This document shows positions 8,249 to 33,595 of a stretch of DNA of 64,000 nucleotides, piece after piece. A model generated the notes under the pieces. The model was given only the letters and a program-made list of their open reading frames with translations. It was not told the origin of the DNA and searched no databases. The translations under genes were made by a program, and so were the position numbers. This DNA comes from Alphaproteobacteria bacterium (GTDB lineage Bacteria; Pseudomonadota; Alphaproteobacteria; Rhizobiales; Xanthobacteraceae): contig JAPLPD010000111.1 of the NCBI GenBank assembly GCA_026400395.1, positions 1-64,000 on the forward strand. Direction: 5' to 3'. Numbering within the stretch: the first letter of the stretch is position 1; every line of letters begins with the position of its first letter.

Positions 8249-8938
8249 TCACACACCGAGGTACCTGGTCTTGGTTTCCGCATCGTCCGCAAGCTCTGCG
8301 GGCGAGCACTGATGGACGATACGGCCCTTGCTCATGATGAACACGACATCGGCGTAGCGCAGAGCGAAGGCCAATTGCTGCTCGACGAGCAGGATCGAAG
8401 TGCCGGCATTCTTGAGCGCCTCGATGGTGCGGCCGAGCTCGCGCACCATCATCGGCGCCAATCCCTCCGTTGGTTCATCCATCAGCAGCAGCGCCGGATT
8501 TCCGACCAGGGCGCGCGCCGCCGCGAGCATCTGCTGTTCGCCACCGCTGAGCTTGCCGGCGAGGCTACGCAGCCGGCTGTGCAGGTTGGGAAACAGCTCG
8601 ACCACCTTGTCGAAGCCCCACCGGCCATGTCCGCGCGCGGCGACCTCGAGGTGCTCCTTCACGCTGAGGGAACGGAACACATGACGGCCCTGCGGCACCA
8701 GCCCGACGCCGAGGCGGGCGATGCGGTGCGACGGCATGTTGGTGATGTCGGTATCCTTGAAAAGGATGGTGCCGCGCTTTGCCGGCGTAAGCCCGATGAT
8801 GGAGCGCACCAAAGTCGTCTTACCGACGCCGTTGCGGCCGAGCAGGGCGACCACCTGACCAGGCTTCAATTCGAGCGACACACCCTGAAGGATGTAGCTG
8901 TCGCCGTAGTAGGTGTGAACGTCTTTGATGCTCAGCAT
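8249..8938 (-). CDS. livF: branched-chain amino acid-type ABC transporter ATP-binding protein (LivF)
   Basis: Walker A GRNGVGKTT, LSGGEQQML signature, Walker B ALLLMDEPTEGL. Confidence 0.92.
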   Translation of the reverse strand: MLSIKDVHTYYGDSYILQGVSLELKPGQVVALLGRNGVGKTTLVRSIIGLTPAKRGTILFKDTDITNMPSHRIARLGVGLVPQGRHVFRSLSVKEHLEVAARGHGRWGFDKVVELFPNLHSRLRSLAGKLSGGEQQMLAAARALVGNPALLLMDEPTEGLAPMMVRELGRTIEALKNAGTSILLVEQQLAFALRYADVVFIMSKGRIVHQCSPAELADDAETKTRYLGV

Positions 8939-8943
8939 GCTAG

Positions 8944-9636
8944 TCAGCGCCGAGGTAGATTTCGGTGACGTGAGGATCGTTGCGGATGGTGGCTACGTCG
9001 CCGTCCGCGATCAAACGTCCCTGGTGGAGGACGGATCATCAGGATTGTCATCTCGCTCGGCAGGCTGCGGATCATGCCGACGACGCGGACAACCTCGGCC
9101 GCCGACAGGCCGGCGGTGGGTTCGTCCAACAACAGCACCTTCGGCTGAACCGCCATGGCGAGGATGAGGTCGATCTGGCGTTTTTCTCCGTAGGAGATTT
9201 CTTGGGTGGTCCTTCCGGCGATCGAGGTGAGATCCCATTTTTTCAGCAGCGCGTCGGCCATCTGAAACAGGTGACGGTTGGCGCCCATGCGCTTGAGCAT
9301 GGAAAACGCCGATGGTTCGGGGGCTTGTAGGGCGAGTAGGATGTTTTCCAGGACCGTCAGGCGCGGGAACAGATTGGTGATTTGAAACGTCCGGGCGAGC
9401 CCCAGTCTGGCGCGCTCGTAGGCCGGGAGTTCGGTGATGTCGCGGCCGAACAGTGTGATCGTGCCGCTCGACACCGGAAAGCTGCCGGCCAGCATGTTGA
9501 ACAGCGTGGTCTTGCCGGCTCCATTGGGCCCGATGATGAGGCGGCGCTCCTGCGGCGCGACGGACAGCGAAACGTCGGACAGCGCCCGCACGCCGCCGAA
9601 ATTCTTGGACACGGCTTCGATCGCGAGGGCGCTCAC
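8944..9636 (-). pseudogene. livG: ABC transporter ATP-binding protein (LivG) with apparent internal deletion/frameshift near the C-terminus
   Basis: Walker A GPNGAGKTT, ISYGEKRQIDL, Walker B VLLLDEPTAGL intact; after MTILMI the frame changes to RPPPGTFDRG..., while the expected tail VLHQGRLIADGDVATIRNDPHVTEIYLGAD* is readable in another frame (original stop at 8940-8942). GTG start at 9636. Confidence 0.7.
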
Positions 9637-9647
9637 CGTTCGGGCGC

Positions 9648-10613
9648 TCAAGGTCCGCTCCTGCGCTTGCGAAGGCTCTCGATAAGTCCGGTCAGGCCGT
9701 TCGGCGTGAACAGGGCAACCAGCACGTAGACAAATCCAAGAATCATCAGCCAACGCTCGGTGTACGTGCTGATGATATTTTCCAGGAGTACAATCGCCGC
9801 CGCGCCCAACGCGGGCCCGATCAAGGTCCCGGCGCCACCCAGGATGACCATCAGCAGGACTTCGGCCGAGCGGGCCACATGGATGTAGTCGGGGCTGACA
9901 AAGCGGTTGTTGAAGACGTAAAGGCAGCCGGCCAACCCCGCGAATGCGGCGGCGAGGACGAAGACTGCGAGCTTGTATCGCCAAACATTATAGCCGAGTG
10001 CCAGCATTCGCGTTTCGCTTTCGCGGATTCCCCGCAAGGCGCAGCCGAACGGCGACGACACTATGCGAACGAGCAATAGCGTGCCTACGACAACGAAAAA
10101 CAGTACGAAGTAATAGAACGGCGTGCTGTCCGCCATTGACCAGGGCAGCGGCAGGTTCGGCCGCGGCACCTCGGGAAGGCCGTCGTCACCGCCGGTGAGC
10201 GAACGCCAGCCGAAGGCGATTCCCCACACCACCTGCGATAGAGCGAGCGTGATCATCAGGAAATAGCTGCCCCGCGTCCGCAACGCCAGCAGGCCCAGCA
10301 AGAGCGCCGTCAGCGCGGCCATAAGAATGCCCGCCGGCAGCGTGAGCCAAACGCTCCACCCCAACTTCAGCGCCAAAAGACCGGTGACATAGGCCGCCAT
10401 CCCGAAGTAGGCGGCATGTCCTAACGAGGCCATGCCGGTGTATCCCAACAGCAGATCGAGGCTCATCGCGAATAACGCGAAGATCATCATTTTAATCACC
10501 AGCCCGAGATAGTAGGGCGGCAGAAAATAGGGCAAGGCCAGCAGCACGGCGGTCCCGATCAGGGCGATTACCGCGAACTTCCGGCCGGACATATGGGGGA
10601 GGAGATTTGTCAT
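9648..10613 (-). CDS. livM: branched-chain amino acid ABC transporter permease (LivM)
   Basis: Hydrophobic permease; LGYTGMASLGHAAYFGMAAYVTG, RGSYFLMITLALSQV. Confidence 0.92.
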   Translation of the reverse strand: MTNLLPHMSGRKFAVIALIGTAVLLALPYFLPPYYLGLVIKMMIFALFAMSLDLLLGYTGMASLGHAAYFGMAAYVTGLLALKLGWSVWLTLPAGILMAALTALLLGLLALRTRGSYFLMITLALSQVVWGIAFGWRSLTGGDDGLPEVPRPNLPLPWSMADSTPFYYFVLFFVVVGTLLLVRIVSSPFGCALRGIRESETRMLALGYNVWRYKLAVFVLAAAFAGLAGCLYVFNNRFVSPDYIHVARSAEVLLMVILGGAGTLIGPALGAAAIVLLENIISTYTERWLMILGFVYVLVALFTPNGLTGLIESLRKRRSGP

Positions 10614-25571: not shown

Positions 25572-27638
25572 ATGAAGCCGGTCCGTATCATCCTCACCAT
25601 CATTGCCGCCGCGGCGTTCGCGGCGGCCGGCGGCGGTGTGTGGTTTGTGCGGTCGCTCGGTCCGGTCCCGGTGCTCGCCGATACCGACCTTTCGACTCAG
25701 GTGCTCGACCGCAACGGCCGGCTCCTGCGCGCCTATGCGACGCCGGACGGCCGCTGGCGGCTGCCGGTGACGGTGTTCGACGTCGATCCGCGCTTCATCG
25801 AGATGTTGCAGATCTACGAGGATCGCCGCTTCCGCAACCATGCCGGCGTCGATCCGCTGGCGATGAGCCGCGCCGCCTGGCAGTTCCTGGCGAGCGCTCG
25901 GGTCATTTCCGGCGGCTCGACCTTGACGATGCAGGTCGCGCGTCTGCTTGAGCCGCGCGCCGAGCGCACCCTCGGCGCGAAACTTCGGCAGATCGTTCGC
26001 GCCCTCGAAATCGAGCGCAACATGAGCAAAGACGAGGTGCTCGGCCTCTACCTGACGCTCGCGCCCTATGGCGGTAATCTAGAGGGCATTCGTGCGGCGT
26101 CGCTCGCCTATTTCGGCAAGGAGCCGAAGAAGCTCTCGCTCGCTGAGGCCGCGCTGCTGGTTGCGTTGCCGCAGTCGCCGGAACTGCGCAGGCCGGACCG
26201 TTCCGCCACAGTGGCCCGCGCGGCGCGCGACCGGGTGCTCGATCGCATCGCCAAGGCTGGCCGCGTCCCCGCGGACGAGGTTGCCTTCGCCAAGCTTGAA
26301 GTCGTTGTTGCCGGACGGCGGCCGATGCCGGCGCTCGCGCCGCACGCCTCCGATCAGACGGTCGCCGCGCTGCCGAAGCAGAAGCTGCACCGGCTGACGA
26401 TCGACGCGGCGCTGCAGAAGAATCTCGAGGATTTGGCCCGCGAGCGGGCGAAGGCGCTCGGCCCCAATATTTCGGTGGCGATCATTGCGGTCGACAACGC
26501 CAGCGGCGAGGTGCTGGCCCGCGTCGCGTCGGCCGATTATTTCGACGAACGGCGCGCGGGGCAGGTCGATATGACCGATGCGCTGCGCTCGCCCGGCTCC
26601 GCGCTCAAGCCGTTCATCTACGGATTGGCCTTCGAGGACGGCATTGCGCATCCGGAAACCCTGATCGAAGATCGCCCGGTTCGTTATGGCGCCTACGCGC
26701 CGGAAAATTTCGATATGACGTTCCAAGGCACGGTGACAACGCGGCGGGCGCTGCAGATGTCGCTCAACGTGCCGGCGGTGTCGCTGCTCGATGGTGTTGG
26801 CGCGAGCCGTCTGAATGCGCGCATTGCACAGGCGGGAGGCACGCTGATGCTGCCGAAGGGCGAGGCACCCGGTCTCGCCATGGCGCTCGGCGGTCTTGGC
26901 ATCAAGCTATCCGACCTCACCATGCTTTATGTTGGTCTCGCTCGCGGCGGCAACGCCGTTTCGCTCGTTGAGCGCATCACAAGCGCCGAGCCGGCCGCGC
27001 CGCGGCGTCTGCTCGACCCGGTGGCGTCCTGGTATCTTGGCAATATCCTGGTCGGCACGCCCCCGCCGGAGAATGCCGCCGGTGGCCGCATCGCGTTCAA
27101 GACCGGCACCTCCTACGGTTATCGGGATGCCTGGTCGGTCGGATTTGACGGCAAGCGCACGATCGGCGTGTGGGTCGGCCGCCCTGACGGGGCGCCGGTT
27201 GCCGGGCTGGTCGGCCGCGTGGCCGCGGCGCCCATCCTGTTCGACGTCTTCGCGCGCCTCGGCCAGCCGGCCGCTCCGCTGCAGCATGCGCCGCGTGGCG
27301 CCGTGTTTTCGACCAGCGCCAAGCTGCCGCCGCCGCTTCGACACTTTCGTCCAAACGGCGTGGTGGCAAGCGACAGCGCTTCGCCACCCCTCCGCATTAT
27401 GTTCCCACCGAACAATGCGCGTCTCGAACTGACGACATTCGAGGGCAAGACCGATCCGTTGGCGTTGAAGATTACGGGCGGCGTCGAGCCGCTGACCGTG
27501 CTGGTCAATGGCGCACCCACGGCCGCGCGCGTCGATCGCCGCACGCTGTTCGTCGATCCGGACGGGCCTGGGTTCCTTCGTTTGACGGTGATCGACGCTC
27601 GCGGCGCCGCCGACAGCGTCATGGTTCGGCTGCAATAA
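25572..27638 (+). CDS. pbpC: penicillin-binding protein 1C
   Basis: GT51 EDRRFRNHAGVDPLAM, GGSTLTMQVARLLEPR; transpeptidase SPGSALKPFIYGLAFEDG, FKTGTSYGYRDAW; C-terminal PBP1C domain. Confidence 0.92.
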   Translation: MKPVRIILTIIAAAAFAAAGGGVWFVRSLGPVPVLADTDLSTQVLDRNGRLLRAYATPDGRWRLPVTVFDVDPRFIEMLQIYEDRRFRNHAGVDPLAMSRAAWQFLASARVISGGSTLTMQVARLLEPRAERTLGAKLRQIVRALEIERNMSKDEVLGLYLTLAPYGGNLEGIRAASLAYFGKEPKKLSLAEAALLVALPQSPELRRPDRSATVARAARDRVLDRIAKAGRVPADEVAFAKLEVVVAGRRPMPALAPHASDQTVAALPKQKLHRLTIDAALQKNLEDLARERAKALGPNISVAIIAVDNASGEVLARVASADYFDERRAGQVDMTDALRSPGSALKPFIYGLAFEDGIAHPETLIEDRPVRYGAYAPENFDMTFQGTVTTRRALQMSLNVPAVSLLDGVGASRLNARIAQAGGTLMLPKGEAPGLAMALGGLGIKLSDLTMLYVGLARGGNAVSLVERITSAEPAAPRRLLDPVASWYLGNILVGTPPPENAAGGRIAFKTGTSYGYRDAWSVGFDGKRTIGVWVGRPDGAPVAGLVGRVAAAPILFDVFARLGQPAAPLQHAPRGAVFSTSAKLPPPLRHFRPNGVVASDSASPPLRIMFPPNNARLELTTFEGKTDPLALKITGGVEPLTVLVNGAPTAARVDRRTLFVDPDGPGFLRLTVIDARGAADSVMVRLQ

Positions 27639-29958: not shown

Positions 29959-31677
29959 ATGACGACGGCTAGCAATCGGGACCAGATTTCCTTCCGCGAC
30001 AAGGGTTTGACCGCGATTATGGATCTCGCGGTGGGATCGCATGCGCGCGCCGTGGCCGTGCTGCTGCTGGCGTCGCTGCTGGCCTTCCTGCCGGGCTTCT
30101 TCCAGATACCGCCAACCGATCGCGACGAGGCCCGCTTCGCCCAGGCGACCAAGCAGATGCTGGAAACCGGCGAGTACGTCGATATCCATTTCCAGGATGA
30201 GGTTCGGTACAAAAAGCCGGTCGGTATCTACTGGCTGCAGGTGGCCACCATCAAGACCGCCTCGGCCCTCGGCATATCCAATGCCCGGCAGCGGATATGG
30301 CTCTACCGCGTCCCCTCGCTGATCGGGGCAGTTGGCGCTGTGCTGCTGACCTATTGGACGGCGCTCGCCTTCGTGTCGCGCCGTGCCGCCGTCTTGGCTG
30401 CCTTGATGATGGCCAGCTCAATCCTGCTCGGTGTCGAGGCGCGTCTCGCAAAGACCGACGCCATGCTGCTGTTCACCGCGGTCGCCGCGATGGGCGCGAT
30501 GGCGCGGGTCTATCTCAGCGACCGGCGCCAGCAGTCTGGACTTGCCGGCTGGACCTGGCCGGCGATTTTTTGGACGGCGCTGGCGGCGGGCGTCCTGATC
30601 AAAGGGCCGCTGATTGTCATGTTCGTCGGTCTTGCTGTGCTGGCGCTGGCGGTGACCGATCGATCGGTGCGCTGGCTCGCGGGGCTGCGCCCGATCCCGG
30701 GCCTGCTCTGGCTCTGCCTTCTGGTGCTGCCCTGGTTTCTCGCCATCATCAGCCGGTCCGGCTCGAATTTTTTCGCTGAGTCGGTCGGCCACGACCTGAT
30801 CAGCAAGTTGGTCAGCATCCAGGAGTCGCACGGCGCGCCGCCTGGCACCTACTTTGCGCTGTTCTGGGTGACATTCTGGCCCGGGGCTACCTTGGCGGCG
30901 ATGGCGGTTCCCACCGTCTGGGCGTCGCGCCGTGAGAAGGGCGCGAAGTTCCTGCTGTGCTGGATCGTGCCGGCTTGGTTCGTTCTCGAACTGGTCATCA
31001 CCAAGCTGCCGCACTACGTGTTGCCGCTCTATCCGGCCATCGCCATCCTGATTTCCGGCGTGGTCGATCCGCATGTGCTGGCGCGGGACCGATGGCTGAC
31101 GCGCGGCGCCGGCTGGTTCTTCGTCTTCCCGGTGATCTTCGGCATCAGCACCGTCGTGGTGCTTGTGATGTTCGGGCGTCAACTGGGTCTACCGGCATGG
31201 CCGTTCGCGGCGGCGGCGATGATCTTCGGTCTGCGGGCGTGGTGGCTCTATCAAGCCGATGGCGCGGAACATGCACTCCTGCGCGGGATGGCCTCGTCCG
31301 GCCTGCTCGCCGTAGCGTTCTACGCCTTCATCGTGCCGTCGCTCGGCACCGTGTTTCCGAGCGCGGCCCTGGCACGTATGCTCCGTGAGGCGGGTTGCCG
31401 GCCCGCCATGGTGGCGTTAGCGGGGTACCAGGAGCCGAGCCTTGTGTTCATGGTCGGCACCGAAACGGCCATGGTTGATGGCACCGATGCGGCCGAATTC
31501 CTGCGCGCTGGCGGCTGCCGGTTTGCACTGGTGGAGTCGCGGCACGAACGGGCGTTCTTGCGGCGCGCCGATGCAATCGGGTTGCGCTACGCGCAACCGC
31601 AGCGCTTCGAGGGCTACAACTATTCCGTCGGCCGCGCGGTTTCGATCGCTATCTATCGGGCTGAGGGCACGCAGTGA
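29959..31677 (+). CDS. ArnT-like glycosyltransferase family 39 membrane protein
   Basis: LPGFFQIPPTDRDEARFAQATKQMLETGEYVDIHFQDEVRYKKPVGIYWLQ; many TM segments. Confidence 0.88.
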   Translation: MTTASNRDQISFRDKGLTAIMDLAVGSHARAVAVLLLASLLAFLPGFFQIPPTDRDEARFAQATKQMLETGEYVDIHFQDEVRYKKPVGIYWLQVATIKTASALGISNARQRIWLYRVPSLIGAVGAVLLTYWTALAFVSRRAAVLAALMMASSILLGVEARLAKTDAMLLFTAVAAMGAMARVYLSDRRQQSGLAGWTWPAIFWTALAAGVLIKGPLIVMFVGLAVLALAVTDRSVRWLAGLRPIPGLLWLCLLVLPWFLAIISRSGSNFFAESVGHDLISKLVSIQESHGAPPGTYFALFWVTFWPGATLAAMAVPTVWASRREKGAKFLLCWIVPAWFVLELVITKLPHYVLPLYPAIAILISGVVDPHVLARDRWLTRGAGWFFVFPVIFGISTVVVLVMFGRQLGLPAWPFAAAAMIFGLRAWWLYQADGAEHALLRGMASSGLLAVAFYAFIVPSLGTVFPSAALARMLREAGCRPAMVALAGYQEPSLVFMVGTETAMVDGTDAAEFLRAGGCRFALVESRHERAFLRRADAIGLRYAQPQRFEGYNYSVGRAVSIAIYRAEGTQ

Positions 31678-32522
31678 GCGCCGCTGGCGATTTTGGCGAG
31701 CGTCCAACCGCAACGCAGTCGTGGCTCCGTAAGACTGAGACTTTGGTTCGTGCGTCCATCGCGACGCTGCGGCGGCCGAGCCGCGGCCCGGTCGCATGGT
31801 GGAGCCAGCGGCGGCTTTTCGTTCTGACTGTGTTTGCAATCGCCGCGCTGCTCGCGACGATGGTTTTGTTCGATGCCTGGTCGGTGCGATCGGCGCGGGG
31901 GCTGCCGCACGGGCTGATCGTTGCGATGCGCGAGTTCACCGATCTCGGCAAGTCCGGCTGGTTCCTGTGGCCAATCGGCGCCATGCTGCTTGCGCTGGCG
32001 GCCATCGACAATCTGACGCTCACGCGGCTGTCGCGCGGGGTATTGGCGGCGTTCGCGCTGCGACTGGGATTTGTATTTCTCGCCATCGGGCTGCCCGGCT
32101 TGTTTGTCACCGTTATCAAGCGGCTGATCGGCCGCGCCCGGCCGTTCGTCCGGGGGGATGACGTCTGGGCTTATGTGCCGTTCAGCTGGCACCCGGCCTA
32201 CGCGAGTTTTCCTTCCGGGCACGCCACCACGGCCTTCGCGGCACTGGTCGCCATAGGCGCGTTATTCCCCCAGGCGCGGGCGCTGATGTGGATTTATGCC
32301 GTCCTGATCGGGCTCAGCCGGGTTGTGGTCACGGCCCACCACCCGAGCGACGTCATCGCGGGGGCGATCTTCGGCGCGATAGGGGGGCTTCTGGTGCGCA
32401 ACTGGTTTGCCGCCCGCCGTCTGGTATTTGCCGTCCGGACGGATGGTTCCGTGCGCCCGATGCCGGGACCCAGCATCTGGCGCATCATCAAAGCTGTTGC
32501 CCGCCGCCCGCTCTCTGCCTAG
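31674..32522 (+). CDS. PAP2-family phosphatase
   Basis: KRLIGRARP ... PSGHATTAFAALVAIG ... SRVVVTAHHPSDVIAGA; GTGA overlap with upstream gene. Confidence 0.9.
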   Translation: MSAAGDFGERPTATQSWLRKTETLVRASIATLRRPSRGPVAWWSQRRLFVLTVFAIAALLATMVLFDAWSVRSARGLPHGLIVAMREFTDLGKSGWFLWPIGAMLLALAAIDNLTLTRLSRGVLAAFALRLGFVFLAIGLPGLFVTVIKRLIGRARPFVRGDDVWAYVPFSWHPAYASFPSGHATTAFAALVAIGALFPQARALMWIYAVLIGLSRVVVTAHHPSDVIAGAIFGAIGGLLVRNWFAARRLVFAVRTDGSVRPMPGPSIWRIIKAVARRPLSA

Positions 32523-32530
32523 AAGGCGGC

Positions 32531-33268
32531 ATGAGCGTCGAACCCATCTCTCCGCCCGCGGTTTCCGTCGTCGTTCCGGTCCGGAACGAGGCGGAGAATA
32601 TTGCCCCGCTGGTGGCCGAAATCGCCGCCGCGCTGGCTGGCCGGCCGTTCGAGGTGATTTATGTCAACGACGGCTCGACCGACGGGACCGCCGCCGAGCT
32701 GACCCGGTTGAAGCTCCTGCATCCCTGGCTTCGCCAGGTGCGGCACGCGCAATCCTGCGGGCAATCGTCGGCGCTGCGCAGCGGCATGGCGGCGGCGCGG
32801 GGGCGGATCATCGTCACCCTCGACGGCGACGGCCAGAACGACCCGGCTTTCCTGCCAAAGCTGATCGCGCCACTGGAACAGAGCGGCACGCGCGTCGGTC
32901 TGGTCGCCGGTCAGCGCGTCGGCCGCCAGGCCACGTCGTTCAAACGCTTCCAGTCACGTTTCGCTAACGCCGTGCGCGGCGCGCTGCTGCGCGACGGCAC
33001 GCGCGACTCCGGCTGCGGGCTCAAGGCTTTTCCTCGCGATCTCGGTTTGTCGCTGCCATATTTCGACGGACTGCATCGTTTTCTGCCGGCGCTAATCCGG
33101 CGCGAGGGCCGCGACGTTGCCTATGTCGATGTGGTGGACCGGCCGCGCCAGCATGGCGTTTCGAACTATGGATTTTGGGACCGGCTGTGGGTCGGGATTC
33201 TCGACCTTTGCGGCGTGTGGTGGCTGATCCGCCGCAGGAAGCGCGTACCGGACGTTTCGGAGGTGTGA
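32531..33268 (+). CDS. glycosyltransferase family 2 (polyprenyl-phosphate glycosyltransferase-like)
   Basis: VSVVVPVRNEAENIAPLVAEIAAAL; VIYVNDGSTDGT; TLDGDGQNDP; FKRFQSRFANAVRGALLRDGTRDSGCGLKAF. Confidence 0.9.
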   Translation: MSVEPISPPAVSVVVPVRNEAENIAPLVAEIAAALAGRPFEVIYVNDGSTDGTAAELTRLKLLHPWLRQVRHAQSCGQSSALRSGMAAARGRIIVTLDGDGQNDPAFLPKLIAPLEQSGTRVGLVAGQRVGRQATSFKRFQSRFANAVRGALLRDGTRDSGCGLKAFPRDLGLSLPYFDGLHRFLPALIRREGRDVAYVDVVDRPRQHGVSNYGFWDRLWVGILDLCGVWWLIRRRKRVPDVSEV

Positions 33269-33595
33269 ATGATCGGTGATCTGGCCCATGTCGTCGGCGG
33301 GTATCTTCACGACGTGTTCGTCGTCAAGCTCGACTGGTGGGTGATCCTGGGGTTGATCGCGCAGGCTTTGTTCACCGCGCGCTTTGTCGTGCAGTGGATC
33401 GCCTCCGAACGCGTTGGCAAGAGCGTGATACCTGTTGCGTTCTGGTGGTTCTCGATCGGCGGCGGATTGTTGCTGTTCGTTTATGCGCTTTACCGCCGCG
33501 ACCCTGTGTTCATTCTCGGACAGGGCTTCGGCGTGTTCGTCTATCTGCGCAATCTCTATTTCGTCCTGCGCGAGCGAAAGCAGGCAACCGCGTAG
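33269..33595 (+). CDS. lipid-A-disaccharide synthase N-terminal-like (LAB_N) membrane protein
   Basis: GLIAQALFTARFVVQWIASERVGKSVIPVAFWWFSIGGGLLLFVYALYRRDPVFILGQGFGVFVYLRNLYF. Confidence 0.9.
   Translation: MIGDLAHVVGGYLHDVFVVKLDWWVILGLIAQALFTARFVVQWIASERVGKSVIPVAFWWFSIGGGLLLFVYALYRRDPVFILGQGFGVFVYLRNLYFVLRERKQATA

Follow-up and report, generated by a model that had tools for sequence, protein, structure and literature searches.

The GT39-PAP2-GT2-LAB_N cluster and its enzymes

We analysed a 64,000-nucleotide stretch of DNA from an Alphaproteobacteria bacterium of the Xanthobacteraceae (contig JAPLPD010000111.1, positions 1 to 64,000; hereafter the window), in which a cluster at 29959-33595 encodes three candidate enzymes of lipid A modification and a small membrane protein of the LAB_N family. 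The open reading frames (ORFs) and Pfam matches agree with an original prediction, made from the nucleotide sequence, of four co-directional genes. The first gene, GT39 (29959-31677), encodes 572 residues (Pfam PMT, E = 2.6e-12). PAP2 (31674-32522; 282 residues; Pfam PAP2, E = 5.8e-24) starts at a GTG codon within a GTGA overlap with GT39. It is followed by GT2 (32531-33268; 245 residues, ATG start; Pfam Glycos_transf_2, E = 4.9e-25) and by a stand-alone LAB_N gene (33269-33595; 108 residues; Pfam LAB_N, E = 1.3e-32), the ATG of which directly follows the GT2 TGA. All four genes are on the + strand, with neighbours overlapping or a few bases apart, and both junctions to which the prediction had pointed, at 31674 and 33269, are present.

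Sequence searches for relatives of known structure returned ArnT alone for GT39 (5ezm, E = 1.6e-6) and, as the best match for GT2, ArnC (9hwj, E = 6.5e-21). These matches support the logic first suggested for the cluster, in which GT2 makes a polyprenyl-phosphate sugar that GT39 transfers. GT2 has the motifs DGST and DGDGQ and a single, weakly hydrophobic C-terminal segment. However, the window proteins score far under the NCBIfam equivalog cut-offs, reaching 82 of 567 bits for ArnT and 80 of 529 bits for ArnC. We therefore rejected their identification as ArnT and ArnC, and the cluster is not an Arn system. ArnA and ArnB are indeed missing from the cluster, as had been noted, although this loses its force as an objection because a hexuronic acid pathway needs neither. 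For PAP2, the best solved relative is LpxE (6ebu, E = 3.5e-10) and the catalytic motif is complete (K-x6-RP, PSGH and SR-x5-H); the comparison does not separate LpxE from LpxF specificity. On the basis of these sequence relationships, we propose that GT39 is an RgtF-like transferase of the glycosyltransferase C (GT-C) type that would act as a lipid A C-1 hexuronosyltransferase, that PAP2 is an LpxE-like lipid A 1-phosphatase, and that GT2 is a short RgtE-like polyprenyl-phosphate hexuronosyltransferase.

The gene order GT39-PAP2-GT2 is that of rgtF-lpxE-rgtE in Oligotropha carboxidovorans (OCA5_c19750, c19740 and c19730, respectively), the lipid A of which contains two galacturonic acid (GalA) residues (PMC7663294). 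In Mesorhizobium loti, rgtE, rgtF and lpxE are likewise reported to be clustered, according to passages of PMC5644692. Sequence identity between the window GT39 and that of a Mesorhizobium sp. 1M-11 locus (L132) is 37.5%, close to the values of 38-39% that have been reported for comparisons of M. loti RgtF with the proteins of Granulibacter and Oligotropha. Thus, where the original prediction saw a resemblance to rhizobial Rgt systems and an under-described system, the resemblance stands but the cluster in all likelihood represents the actual RgtF/LpxE/RgtE pathway and not a mere look-alike, given the Oligotropha order and LpxE as best PAP2 relative. It matches genes already known for lipid A C-1 alpha-galacturonosylation, and we hold with good confidence that it encodes a lipid A C-1 hexuronosylation pathway of this kind.

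Genes adjoining distant loci bear on the sugar donor. Near GT2 and LAB_N, six of these loci (L139, L148, L142, L143, L144 and L146) have an extended short-chain dehydrogenase/reductase. Its top match in the PDB is 5u4q, named a dTDP-glucose 4,6-dehydratase, and its closest solved relative with a nameable function is 6zl6 (E = 3e-55), which we take to be an epimerase that converts UDP-glucuronic acid (UDP-GlcA) at C-4. Three loci, two of them in Bartonella, have a UDP-glucose dehydrogenase near GT2 that is about 55% identical to that of the genome from which the window comes, where the enzyme scores 470 bits. Because epimerase-like and UDP-glucose dehydrogenase genes are found in these distant loci, the donor is probably a UDP-hexuronic acid, with either GalA or GlcA as the sugar. 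In Granulibacter, which has a homologue of RgtF, the lipid A bears alpha-GlcA (PMC8036547).

Linkage of LAB_N to GT2 across genomes

The original prediction had proposed surveying gene neighbourhoods for LAB_N with GT39 and PAP2. This survey revealed strong co-occurrence, centred on GT2 and LAB_N. Among 80 named loci, a set that favours conservation because it consists of the closest relatives, the nearest LAB_N relatives come from Xanthobacteraceae, Rhodoplanes and Pseudorhodoplanes. LAB_N adjoins GT2 in 79 of the 80, and the remaining locus is truncated by the end of its contig; 70 loci include GT39, 51 include a separate PAP2 and 5 more a fused one. In the fused cases (L112, L115, L124, L126 and L129, at about 8365-10008), all of the Pleomorphomonas type, a single ORF of 532-547 residues joins PAP2 to GT2 between GT39 and LAB_N. 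Suspected fusions of GT2 to LAB_N (open frames of 248-414 residues) proved instead to be frame overlaps in GC-rich DNA. The order PAP2-GT2-LAB_N recurs across the family and the full order GT39-PAP2-GT2-LAB_N is found in most of the named loci, so the arrangement is not due to chance.

Two less biased samples agree with this linkage. In a phylum-wide sample of 249 genomes, GT2 is present in 34 of the 35 genomes that have LAB_N and adjacent to it in about 30. In a class-wide sample of 385 genomes, 137 have GT2, 104 have LAB_N and 97 have both (Fisher p = 4e-49, ignoring the relatedness of the genomes); the two genes lie within 3 kb of each other in 84 of the 104 LAB_N genomes, with a median gap of 90 bp. 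Lone LAB_N genes with GT2 far off in the same genome (L138, L140 and L141) have neighbours that are unrelated or unassigned.

The linkage also bears on M. loti, where rgtE, rgtF and lpxE have the locus tags MAFF_RS01125, 01135 and 01140 and the relevant passages of the two reports (PMC5644692, PMC7795004) make no mention of 01130. Because the Mesorhizobium sp. 1M-11 locus reads GT2-LAB_N-GT39-PAP2, MAFF_RS01130 is, by analogy, probably LAB_N.

The LAB_N fold and its replacement by DedA

The name LAB_N has been described as misleading where it annotates members of the PQ-loop group, to which eukaryotic MPDU1 also belongs (PMC3281891). An AlphaFold model of the window protein comprises an amphipathic helix and three transmembrane (TM) helices, with a predicted confidence (pLDDT) of 92.5 in the best model. 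Against the PDB, the LAB_N profile has eight matches, every one of them a SemiSWEET (best E = 0.0047), and an hhalign comparison with a SemiSWEET alignment extends over 85 columns, the whole 3-TM unit (E = 1.5e-5, probability 80%). The Pfam SWEET family PF03083 (MtN3_slv) has no match in the window LAB_N and matches 4 of 21 relatives weakly, under the cut-off (best E = 0.0088); one gene, in genome G309, matches both PF03083 and LAB_N. A double LAB_N in one ORF (L139:7657-8448, - strand, genome G102) has a hydrophobic segment between its units, which is the 3-1-3 plan of eukaryotic SWEETs and fits a parallel dimer; phmmer found no PDB match for this protein. By sequence, LAB_N is thus a SemiSWEET/PQ-loop-like 3-TM protein. 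A GtrA-type (PF04138) identity was rejected (hhalign probability 0.2%, E = 0.35); a GtrA gene is present elsewhere in the window's genome.

If LAB_N moves the lipid carrier, loci that lack it should have another carrier-moving protein, and this expectation was the basis of a replacement test. In 16 LAB_N-less loci, representing nine family codes, a DedA/VTT protein lies directly beside GT2, and all 16 match PF09335. Across 232 GT2 places (some loci counted twice), LAB_N alone is present in 164, DedA alone in 17 (16 distinct), neither in 51 and both in none; DedA is likewise absent from the 1.95 Mb of LAB_N loci. The two genes are thus mutually exclusive. On the GT2 tree, LAB_N and DedA states switch at least five times by parsimony, although fewer switches are forced by strongly supported branches. 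Members of the DedA family translocate undecaprenyl phosphate, and some of them are needed for lipid A modification that depends on the carrier (PMC9876793, PMC12893004, PMC7835334). Homology between LAB_N and DedA was rejected (hhalign probability 0.3%, E = 0.19), and DedA/VTT would therefore be a functional stand-in for LAB_N and not a relative.

Other genes were also seen beside GT2 in LAB_N-less loci. A family of 141-155 residues with four TM segments and no Pfam match is present in L253:5967-6389, L257:5701-6141, L255:4376-4840 (- strand), L292-L296 and L299; we do not put this family forward as a further substitute, since it co-occurs with DedA as well (L283 and L285). In L271-L274, the gene beside GT2 encodes a DUF423 membrane protein and is divergently oriented.

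Replacement by DedA is the main reason for which we consider LAB_N a carrier translocase over an anchor. As an anchor or stabilizer it would hold the short GT2 at the membrane without transporting anything, much as DPM2 and DPM3 serve DPM1. The weak C-terminal segment of the 245-residue GT2 would suit such a role, since ArnC-like GT2s of about 325 residues have C-terminal TM helices of their own and long GT2s of this type (L262, L263, L265 and L267) do occur without LAB_N; moreover, LAB_N follows GT2 more closely than it follows GT39 or PAP2. However, it is hard to see why a mere anchor should be replaced by a sequence-unrelated carrier-flippase family, and LAB_N resembles a transporter fold. 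We therefore regard an anchoring role as unlikely. For the alternative that LAB_N is the polyprenyl-phosphate(-sugar) translocase of the pathway, we judge the chances to be about even from the comparisons above.

The identity of the substitute also raises the question of what is moved. Because DedA is known for recycling of the empty carrier, LAB_N may transport in either direction. LAB_N could, in the manner of DedA, serve solely to return bare polyprenyl phosphate inwards while some other protein flips the loaded carrier, as would befit a gene whose substitute is characterized as an undecaprenyl phosphate recycling translocase. Yet recycling is a general need met by housekeeping proteins, whereas LAB_N is bound to one pathway, and in eukaryotes the use of the loaded carrier depends on MPDU1, which belongs to the same fold family (PMC3281891). 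A role restricted to recycling thus seems to us rather less probable than outward movement of the loaded carrier, though it deserves some weight.

Proposed pathway and relation to known systems

The comparisons show which genes and families make up the cluster, their synteny and linkage, the fusions and the mutual exclusion of LAB_N and DedA. From these data we infer the enzymatic steps, sugar, transport function and direction of a C-1 hexuronosylation pathway with LAB_N as its carrier translocase, and we assign this explanation as a whole a probability of roughly 0.6. In the cytoplasm, the RgtE-like GT2 would move a hexuronic acid from UDP-GalA (or UDP-GlcA) onto polyprenyl phosphate. The lipid carrier would then cross the inner membrane by means of LAB_N, which would probably work as a parallel dimer like that of SemiSWEETs and most likely move polyprenyl-phosphate-sugar outwards, or possibly bare polyprenyl phosphate inwards. 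At the periplasmic face, the LpxE-like PAP2 would take off the lipid A 1-phosphate, and the RgtF-like GT39 would add the sugar at the freed C-1 position, releasing polyprenyl phosphate. The predicted product is lipid A, or a precursor, with an alpha-linked hexuronic acid at C-1 in place of the phosphate.

Several observations weigh against this explanation. Among the 80 loci, GT39 and PAP2 are present less consistently than GT2 and LAB_N, and in the class-wide sample LAB_N is in some cases remote from GT2 or encoded in a genome that lacks GT2. Of the GT2 places, 51 have no LAB_N or DedA close by; truncated or split loci and the long ArnC-like GT2s account for some of these, but others are genuine exceptions. 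In a Foldseek search with the LAB_N monomer, SemiSWEETs lead the matches at a non-significant E of about 0.4. Finally, the window's own draft genome (G000), in which lipopolysaccharide (LPS) genes were checked through single searches, has no UDP-GlcA 4-epimerase orthologue, compared with its presence in 33 of the 41 genomes searched, mostly relatives. This absence reflects either a gap in the draft or a change of sugar, which is why both GalA and GlcA are possible. The epimerase match is missing in 2 of 10 congeners too.

The acceptor could also be something other than lipid A, such as the LPS core, a hopanoid or another glycolipid, with PAP2 acting as a general polyprenyl-pyrophosphate phosphatase. 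GT39 and PAP2 do belong to broad families, some LAB_N-GT2 loci (L133 and L153) lie beside other PMT_2 transferases, and undecaprenyl pyrophosphate is also a substrate of LpxE-type phosphatases, as stated in passages of PMC6581854. However, the best solved PAP2 relative is LpxE itself and the gene order equals that of the reported rgtF-lpxE-rgtE cluster. The genes around the cluster are unrelated to it: upstream, Pfam identifies TctC and a class II aldolase, and downstream, on the opposite strand, an amidase and a Cys/Met pyridoxal phosphate enzyme. The hopanoid glycolipid that the original prediction had listed as an option finds no support, as there is no hopanoid gene in or beside the cluster. 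We thus consider another acceptor improbable.

Further upstream in the window, 25572-27638 encodes a PBP1C-type penicillin-binding protein (transglycosylase, transpeptidase and BiPBP_C domains) with no sign of a link to the cluster. A search of the cluster region revealed no sigma-70-like promoter, a result of little weight in alphaproteobacteria.

To our knowledge, no protein has been assigned the transmembrane movement of polyprenyl-phosphate-uronate in lipid A modification of the rhizobial type, and the proposal of LAB_N as translocase of this pathway appears to be new in the literature searched. If it is correct, a bacterial protein of 108 residues would provide a tractable model both for this step and for the role of MPDU1. 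As of 2012, what MPDU1 contributes to the use of dolichyl-phosphate sugars was stated to be unknown (PMC3281891). From the fold family and the logic of the pathway, it is possible that LAB_N is the bacterial counterpart of MPDU1. More tentatively, and at a little short of even odds, stand-alone LAB_N proteins may be widespread, unrecognized flippases of polyprenyl-monophosphate sugars that have a SemiSWEET/PQ-loop fold, are functionally interchangeable with DedA and correspond to MPDU1. Were this so, the bacterial set of GT2, PQ-loop protein and GT-C transferase would parallel the eukaryotic set of DPM1, MPDU1 and PMT/ALG.

Like SemiSWEETs, LAB_N has three TM helices and the glutamine column of the PQ motif. 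Unlike SemiSWEETs, it has a signature of its own (RF-x2-Q-x3-SE, P-x2-FW, DPV-x2-GQ and RN) and is tied to a lipid-carrier pathway and not to the transport of free sugars. The plan of a GT2, a small membrane protein and a GT-C transferase is common to the window cluster and to three-component glycosylation, in which the small protein is a GtrA/GtcA flippase (PMC11127046, PMC7389260). With the Arn system, which makes 4-amino-4-deoxy-L-arabinose modifications through ArnC and ArnT with ArnE/ArnF, the cluster would share the logic by which a GT2 loads a polyprenyl carrier, a flippase moves it and an ArnT-type GT-C enzyme transfers the sugar; unlike Arn, it adds a putative lipid A phosphatase and LAB_N. 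The closest counterpart is the RgtF/LpxE/RgtE system for alpha-(1,1)-GalA on lipid A of M. loti and Oligotropha (Brown et al. 2013, cited in PMC5644692 and PMC7663294), which, in the passages of these papers on which we draw, likewise clusters a GT39, an LpxE-like PAP2 and a short GT2. It differs from the window cluster in its sugar, which is GalA as opposed to GalA or GlcA, and in that those passages do not mention the LAB_N gene that the window cluster contains.

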